From Chloroflexota bacterium (GTDB lineage Bacteria; Chloroflexota; UBA11872), in the NCBI GenBank assembly GCA_026706485.1, contig JAPOYR010000010.1, positions 271,798 through 335,797 of the forward strand: a stretch of 64,000 nt of DNA, given 5' to 3'. This document shows, piece by piece, positions 7,295 to 9,036 of this stretch. Within the stretch, counting starts at the first letter, position 1. Each line of letters opens with the position of its first letter. The notes under the pieces are model-generated. The model was not told the DNA's origin and ran no database searches. It worked only from the letters and a program-made list of their open reading frames with translations. The position numbers and the translations under genes were made by a program.

Positions 7295-8326
7295 ATGCGG
7301 CATCGGCTAGGAATCGCAGGGTCGCTCGCGTTCGGGATGGCCCTCGTCGTGCTGGGCGCCCTCGCGCTGGTGTGGGCGATTCGAAGCTCCGCGGAAGCGC
7401 CCGAGACAGCGCGGCCCCCCGCCGACCTGCCCGATCCGCACGAGCGGATGATGTTCGACTCGGCCTACGACCAACGCCTCAGCCGCGACGCCATCCCACC
7501 CATCTACCAGCCGCACTTCGTGGCCGCCGCCGAGGCGCCGCTCCAGCCGGACGAGCTGGTCATTGGGCTGGTCATCGACGGCGAGGCGCGGGCCTATCCC
7601 GTCACGACGCTCAATCGGCGCGAGATGGTCAACGATGTCGTCGGCGGTACACCGGTGCTCGTCACCTGGTGACCGCTCTGCTACACCGGTCTCGTGCACG
7701 ACCGGCGGTTCGAGGGCCGGACCCTGGTCTTCGGCAATCAGGGCGCGCTGTACAAGACGGCCATGACGTGGTTCGACCACGCCACGGGCACCATCTGGAG
7801 CCAACCAATCGGCCGAGCCCTGGTCGGCGAGCTGCGCGGCGCGACGCTCACCCAGATCCCCTCGACCCTGGACACCTGGGAGGGGTTCCGCGCCCGGCAC
7901 CCCAATGCGCTGGTGCTGTCCAACGGCCTCGACGGACCGCGGCTCATCCTCGCGTCGCCGCGGGAGAACTGGGTGATCGGCCTCGCCTTGGGGGACGCGG
8001 CCGCGGCCGTTGACTTCAGCCACGCACGGGCCGCGGGCCTGGTGCAGCTGACGGTGGGTGATGAGCCGGTGGCGGTCTGGGTCGACTCCACTACCGGAAC
8101 CGTGCGGGCTTATCTGCGGCGGGTGGCGAATCGCCTGCTGGAGTTCGAGTCGGCGGGCGCCGGTACCTTGCGCGACCGCGAGACCGGATCGCTGTGGAGC
8201 GCGACGAATGGCCTGGCGCTCAGCGGTCCGCTTGCCGGCCAAGCCCTCAGCCCGGTGCCCTGGACGTCCGCGTTCGACTGGGCCTGGCGCGATTTTTACC
8301 CAAAATCCACATTCATTGAGGCCTGA
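7295..8326 (+). CDS. DUF3179 membrane-anchored protein, probable selenoprotein (in-frame TGA)
   Basis: The reading frame runs 343 codons from ATG 7295 to TGA 8324-8326 with a single internal TGA at 7670-7672 (codon 126). Residues 9-29 form a membrane anchor. The DUF3179 core is clear: ARAYPVTTLNRREMVNDVVGG leads into VTW-TGA-PLC-YTGLVHDRR, where family members read VT[YF]CPLC. The TGA therefore replaces exactly the first Cys of the CPLC motif and gives U126-P-L-C129. The frame after it is intact for 217 codons with the conserved family continuation (TLVFGNQGALYK, MTWFDHATG). A SECIS-like hairpin follows the TGA. The function of DUF3179 is unknown; a CxxC/UxxC pair suggests redox or metal chemistry outside the membrane. 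A nonsense mutation or sequencing error is the alternative. Confidence 0.8.
7670..7705 (+). promoter_or_regulatory. TGA (Sec) codon with SECIS-like stem-loop
   Basis: TGA at 7670-7672. Downstream, CCGG (7686-7689), a bulged TC (7690-7691) and TCG (7692-7694) can pair with CGA (7699-7701) and CCGG (7702-7705) around a TGCA loop (7695-7698). The loop begins 22 nt after the TGA and has G in its second position, and the bulged U on the 5' side recalls the E. coli fdhF element. An alternative pairing is CCGGTC with GACCGG around an 8-nt loop. The hairpin is seen directly; its role in SelB recruitment is inference. Confidence 0.6.
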
Positions 8327-8409
8327 TTCCGCCTGAAGTCGCCGATTTGGCGGTGCGGCCCGAGCAATCGCACACCGAGTGAGCGGGAGTTTTTTGGCAT
8401 GTTCGGCGT

Positions 8410-9036
8410 TTAACTTCGACTCCGAAACAACTCCGTGACGACTGGGATCTCGACGCAATGGTCGAGCAGGGGACACACCGCGCAGTCGATGATGAGCTTC
8501 GCCGGGGGCCGGGTCGCGCGGCAGAAGCCGGCCCGCTCGAACAGCCCCACCACGTCCCGGTTCACCAGCGAATAGAGCTGCCCGAACCCCCGAGACCTGG
8601 CTTCGGCCTTTGCCGTTTCGATCAGCTGCAGGCCGAGTTGCCGACCTCGATAGTCGCCGCTTACCGCCAGGGAGCGCAGCTCCGCCATCTGGCCAACGTC
8701 GTCGTTGGCATCGTGCCGAATCCCAAATTCGTCGGCCGGGAGCCTGTCCGCCAGCCAAGCGATGATCTCTTGGTGGTTCGACGGCATGCCGTAGACAGCC
8801 ACCGAGACGCAGCCGACGACCTCACCCGAGGGCAGGACGGCCGAGAAGAAGCGACCCAGGCTCTCGTCCCCCAGCATCCGGAGGATTTGCTGCGGACTCA
8901 CCGGGAGCAACGCTCCCGAGCCGTCCGACCGAAACCGGTTAGCCGCGATGAGGGCCGCGATGCTCGGGATGTCGTTGAGCGTCGTAGGGCGAATCACGGC
9001 CCGCTTGGAGCCCATTGAGGATTGGCTACCGGTCAT
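8410..9036 (-). CDS. GNAT acetyltransferase, short N-acetylglutamate-synthase-like
   Basis: 208 residues from ATG 9036 (the frame extends further upstream but without protein-like sequence; the ribosome site is weak). The acetyl-CoA loop is GDYRGRQLG (127-135), preceded by MAELRSLAV, the beta4 strand of GNAT folds. The C-terminus carries a Cys cluster DCAVCPLLDHC (C185, C188, C194) following PPAKL, a layout seen in stand-alone ArgA-type N-acetylglutamate synthases and their YhbS-like relatives. That suggests acetylation of glutamate or another amino acid, but the substrate is not proven. It lies 34 bases downstream of a Gfo/Idh/MocA gene on the same strand. Confidence 0.8.
   Translation of the reverse strand: MTGSQSSMGSKRAVIRPTTLNDIPSIAALIAANRFRSDGSGALLPVSPQQILRMLGDESLGRFFSAVLPSGEVVGCVSVAVYGMPSNHQEIIAWLADRLPADEFGIRHDANDDVGQMAELRSLAVSGDYRGRQLGLQLIETAKAEARSRGFGQLYSLVNRDVVGLFERAGFCRATRPPAKLIIDCAVCPLLDHCVEIPVVTELFRSRS

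Follow-up and report, generated by a model that had tools for sequence, protein, structure and literature searches.

The 64,000-nt window, the whole stretch of Chloroflexota DNA that we analysed, belongs to a 3.37 Mb bin that is 98% complete and carries on its forward strand a gene of the DUF3179 family (PF11376; 7295-8326). The gene starts with ATG at 7295, ends with TGA at 8324-8326 and specifies 343 residues if its sole internal stop, a TGA at codon 126 (7670-7672), is read as selenocysteine (Sec, U126). The 217 codons beyond this TGA (127-343) are open, and the read-through product scored 225.1 bits against DUF3179 in a Pfam scan (gathering cut-off 27). In the alignment of homologues, codon 126 coincided with the first Cys of the motif V-T-W-C-P-L-C; the partner residue of the resulting UxxC motif, Cys129 (7679-7681), is invariant in alignments. 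The initial annotation had noted both a single TGA at the first Cys of CPLC and an intact frame 3' of it, and both observations were borne out.

An N-terminal hydrophobic helix (residues 5-31; 7307-7387), evident in the sequence and predicted as a helix, is a probable membrane anchor or signal, and the product is probably membrane-anchored and exported, judging from its sequence. The neighbouring genes encode a Lon-like protease, a GNAT protein and a MocA-type oxidoreductase; they are syntenic within the genus, and their comparison within the genus gave no clue to the function of the DUF3179 gene. A 483-codon open frame on the opposite strand (7307-8758) seems to be a side effect of the GC-rich codon usage.

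In a single genome, a gene recently broken at codon 126 by a nonsense mutation, a pseudogene or a sequencing error would look alike, with one in-frame stop and an intact frame downstream. Yet all six genus members had the same frame and TGA, and orthologues with exactly one TGA also turned up in the order (three genomes) and the class (two genomes). Between members of the genus, dN/dS was 0.11-0.27 before the TGA and 0.14-0.28 after it; this similarity indicates that the part beyond the TGA is translated and kept, under purifying selection. Codon 126 is TGT or TGC in g2, the sister genus within the same family.

The count of homologues at this column that the initial annotation had proposed extended these observations. 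Among 93 usable genes, drawn from a scan of species genomes together with the genus, order and class loci, codon 126 was TGA in 66, TGC in 17 and TGT in 10, a ratio that differs from a population frequency because the genes were picked for resemblance to an alignment made up mostly of Sec forms, include a few near-identical entries and passed a motif filter demanding Sec or Cys. Sec forms in the survey came from Chloroflexota, Actinomycetota, Nitrospinota, Tectomicrobia and one Verrucomicrobiota bin, and Cys forms from archaeal, Balneolota, Gemmatimonadota and Rokubacteria entries. In a quick tree, Sec and Cys changed six times, at least three of these changes being forced by starred branches, compared with 23.6 changes when labels were shuffled; the tree does not give the direction of change. 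No other in-frame stop, of the scattered kind expected in decaying genes, was present in the Sec genes surveyed. Recurrence of TGA at this same codon is far beyond chance. The earlier view that a random nonsense mutation was unlikely held, since the TGA recurs in independent assemblies, in the whole genus and in 66 of the 93 survey genes. We consider nonsense mutation, sequencing error and pseudogene effectively excluded, with almost no probability left for a broken gene.

Several loci were unusual. In each of two same-class genomes, G034 and G037, an in-frame TGA interrupts three DUF3179 genes (loci L142, L034 and L143 in G034), which suggests duplication of the Sec form there. A bin labelled Verrucomicrobiales holds two tandem Sec-form genes (L119:2719 and L119:4038), both with the hairpin described below; one of them groups with the G034 and G037 genes in the tree, which may reflect a binning error or a transfer. 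A Cys-form paralogue in a genome of the same order (G022:C42, L140; CPLC codon at 1198) has in-frame TAGs upstream of CPLC, one of them where homologues have Tyr in RAYP, and is a pseudogene or an assembly error in that bin.

Decoding of UGA as Sec requires dedicated machinery, and a search for it, also suggested by the initial annotation, found all components in the source genome. SelA (489.5 bits), SelB (289 bits) and SelD (375.5 bits) each exceeded the curated cut-off, and the tRNA-Sec scored 70.1 bits, with the anticodon TCA according to ARAGORN. SelD of the same genome (G000:C1:28817-29743, L055) has an in-frame TGA in GAGUACK and is itself a predicted selenoprotein. A second Rfam tRNA-Sec match just above cut-off (G000:C4:140490-140575, L007) was identified by ARAGORN as tRNA-Ser with the anticodon TGA, and was discarded as a false positive. 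SelA was present in 11/11 compared genomes with TGA-containing DUF3179 genes; being widespread in the phylum (found in 53 of 61 genomes, the Cys-form genus included), it is necessary but only weakly discriminating, and was dropped as a discriminator of Sec-form genomes.

An altered code or general readthrough that placed another amino acid, Trp for instance, at the codon would equally leave the frame open across TGA. Against this, the same genes terminate with TGA in three genomes of the genus, homologues have Cys rather than Trp in this column, and a tRNA-Sec with the anticodon TCA is encoded in the genome. We regard such a reading as extremely improbable.

Reading of codon 126 as Sec is further favoured by an RNA hairpin downstream. 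The initial annotation had described a bulged hairpin with a G in its apical loop past the TGA, and a hairpin is present on the forward strand at 7686-7705, 14-33 nt downstream of the UGA, with a loop G 22 nt beyond the TGA. Its arms, CCGGTC (7686-7691) and GACCGG (7700-7705), enclose an 8-nt apical loop, TCGTGCAC (7692-7699). In the subgroup of genes to which that of the window belongs, the hairpin CCGGTCTCGTGCAYGACCGG is almost invariant, and its 6-bp stem is shifted by one base relative to the wider family. Because of this shift the two groups were analysed apart: the stem of the window subgroup pairs positions 17-22 with 31-36 of a 45-nt piece, where the type-2 register pairs poorly. As the subgroup sequence barely varies, the covariation signal comes from the wider family.

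In that wider family (39 TGA genes), the structure consists of a 7-bp stem and a 5-nt loop, with 95.2% of cells paired. Five pairs were changed on both sides, giving 35 double-change cells. The covariation score was 0.355, compared with 0.082 after shuffling (0/500) and at most 0.078 with slid partners. The corresponding structure in 26 distinct Cys homologues was at shuffle level (41.2% paired versus 40.0%), as were Cys homologues tested in the window-type register. For the window-type hairpin, constraint was visible in synonymous positions: codons 131-137 (7685-7705) showed 92% synonymous identity across genera (13 representatives) versus 42% gene-wide, more than any other of the gene's 194 windows, which points to constraint on the RNA. 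The sole variable third base in these codons is the unpaired base of the His codon.

The folding energy of the hairpin as a single sequence was not unusual (z = -0.24), and folding energies did not separate Sec from Cys genes. The hairpin is convincing because of the comparative evidence, folding energy alone being unremarkable, and our SECIS call uses covariation and synonymous constraint in place of a dedicated SECIS predictor score. We also built a covariance model for the hairpin but set it aside, as it would score coding conservation too. By these comparative measures, the hairpin at 7686-7705 behaves as a bacterial SECIS element. The proposal in the initial annotation of a probable DUF3179 selenoprotein is thus supported by the Sec machinery, the codons of homologues, and SECIS covariation that has no counterpart in Cys homologues. 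Taking these sequence comparisons together, UGA at codon 126 is very probably decoded as Sec.

An AlphaFold2 (AF2) model of the product (pLDDT 88.8) has two beta repeats following the N-terminal hydrophobic helix. The first repeat (approximately residues 88-208; 7556-7918; pLDDT 95.6 when modelled alone) is a predicted Rieske-like beta domain containing U126-P-L-C129, and the second (approximately residues 226-341; 7970-8317; pLDDT 88.8) is a predicted Rieske-like beta domain without a Cys pair. For this separate model of repeat 1, the top 50 structural matches were almost wholly of the Rieske fold (VIA-align Z up to 8.8), and repeat 2 matched Rieske ferredoxins with Z up to 9.7; beside these values, the Foldseek E-values were weak. 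In the model, U126 and C129 flank a beta-hairpin turn between strands 119-126 and 131-136. Both positions, the first as Sec or Cys, are invariant in domain alignments.

This model bears on the idea that the locus is a split gene, in which a 125-residue protein ends at the TGA and a second one starts anew beyond it, with GTG 7694 as one possible start. Alternative starts are indeed present (ORF 7694-8326), but the break would cut through a beta hairpin within a single predicted domain, and Cys homologues are continuous across codon 126. Nor would a split account for covariation of the hairpin in TGA genes that Cys genes lack, or for the Sec machinery in the genome. We give the split gene hardly any credence.

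Sequence comparisons gave little link between DUF3179 and Rieske proteins. A Pfam scan of the product gave DUF3179 only, with no Rieske profile match; hhalign linked DUF3179 only weakly to Rieske proteins encoded in the same genome, the sequence profiles barely connecting; and a sequence search of the PDB gave matches only at E ~0.5. The DUF3179 domain alignment contains no invariant or nearly invariant His, and therefore the ligands of a Rieske cluster (two Cys, two His) are missing. A register drawn by eye, in which UPLC corresponded to the Rieske C-x-H ligand loop, was ruled out by the aligned ranges (for example, model 33-133 to chain 2-96 of 2qpz). The models predict that DUF3179 consists of two tandem Rieske-like domains lacking the Rieske His ligands, with UPLC in the hairpin turn of domain 1. 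In predicted fold, both repeats resemble Rieske [2Fe-2S] ferredoxins and NirD-type Rieske-fold proteins, but these differ from DUF3179, which has no conserved His ligands, no Rieske profile match, and UxxC or CxxC in the turn of repeat 1 only.

The function of the site can be read in two ways, both compatible with Sec decoding. UxxC might serve mainly as a metal- or metalloid-binding or electron-transfer site related to that of Rieske proteins, as the resemblance of both predicted repeats to Rieske [2Fe-2S] domains would suggest. Against this stand the absence of the 2Cys/2His set, the weak profile comparison, and the position of U126, which by arithmetic on aligned ranges lies ~10 residues before the first Rieske ligand Cys. 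We consider this use of the site, the main alternative, rather unlikely. The invariance of U126 and C129 at the hairpin turn and the missing cluster ligands favour instead an extracytoplasmic selenol/thiol couple. On the basis of the UxxC motif and the predicted fold, Sec126 and Cys129 would most likely form an oxidoreductase site outside the cytoplasm cycling between selenol/thiol and selenylsulfide, an assignment to which we give an even chance. The literature searched in full text, in which only three papers used the term DUF3179, contained no enzyme activity for the family.

The proposed sequence of events would be as follows. SelB carrying Sec-tRNA(Sec) (anticodon UCA) would bind the mRNA hairpin past UGA 126, Sec would be inserted and termination avoided, yielding the full-length protein with U126-P-L-C129, and Sec126 and Cys129 would then cycle between their reduced and selenylsulfide forms.

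The initial annotation knew of no report of Sec in DUF3179, which was wrong: the DUF3179 domain-containing protein (pfam11376, UxxC/T) is tabulated as a selenoprotein family in a 2022 review (PMC9312934), and the same entry appears in a 2026 review (PMC13188914). Both tables credit Zhang and Gladyshev 2007, a study of an Olavius algarvensis symbiont. A word search of the main text of the two reviews found no mention of Chloroflexi. Going by the review entries, the catalogued protein is of the same Pfam family as ours and likewise has Sec first in a UxxC motif; it differs in coming, with an example accession, from a study of a symbiotic deltaproteobacterium, whereas the gene described here is from Chloroflexota. 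The Cys-form proteins of genus g2 and of archaeal and bacterial homologues belong to the same family and have Cys in place of Sec (ITWCPLC), encoded by TGC or TGT at codon 126 without a conserved hairpin.

Sec in DUF3179 is thus already catalogued, and what is added here is the breadth of the Sec form, the covariation of its SECIS and the Rieske-like fold. In the genes surveyed, the Sec form proved common across several phyla. Tentatively, and at slightly less than even confidence, we propose that these proteins combine a tandem Rieske-like fold devoid of Fe-S ligands with a Sec-x-x-Cys redox couple, placed in a hairpin turn of domain 1, on a non-thioredoxin scaffold, and that they occur commonly in marine and sponge-associated Chloroflexota and also in Actinomycetota and Nitrospinota. 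Sec-type DUF3179 genes are prone to truncated or split annotation, and selenium use is therefore easily missed in such uncultured lineages. Genus g1 (Sec) and genus g2 (Cys), members of one family that both have SelA, offer a clean natural contrast for judging the contribution of Sec, and the predicted Rieske-like fold provides a concrete, testable idea of what DUF3179 might do.
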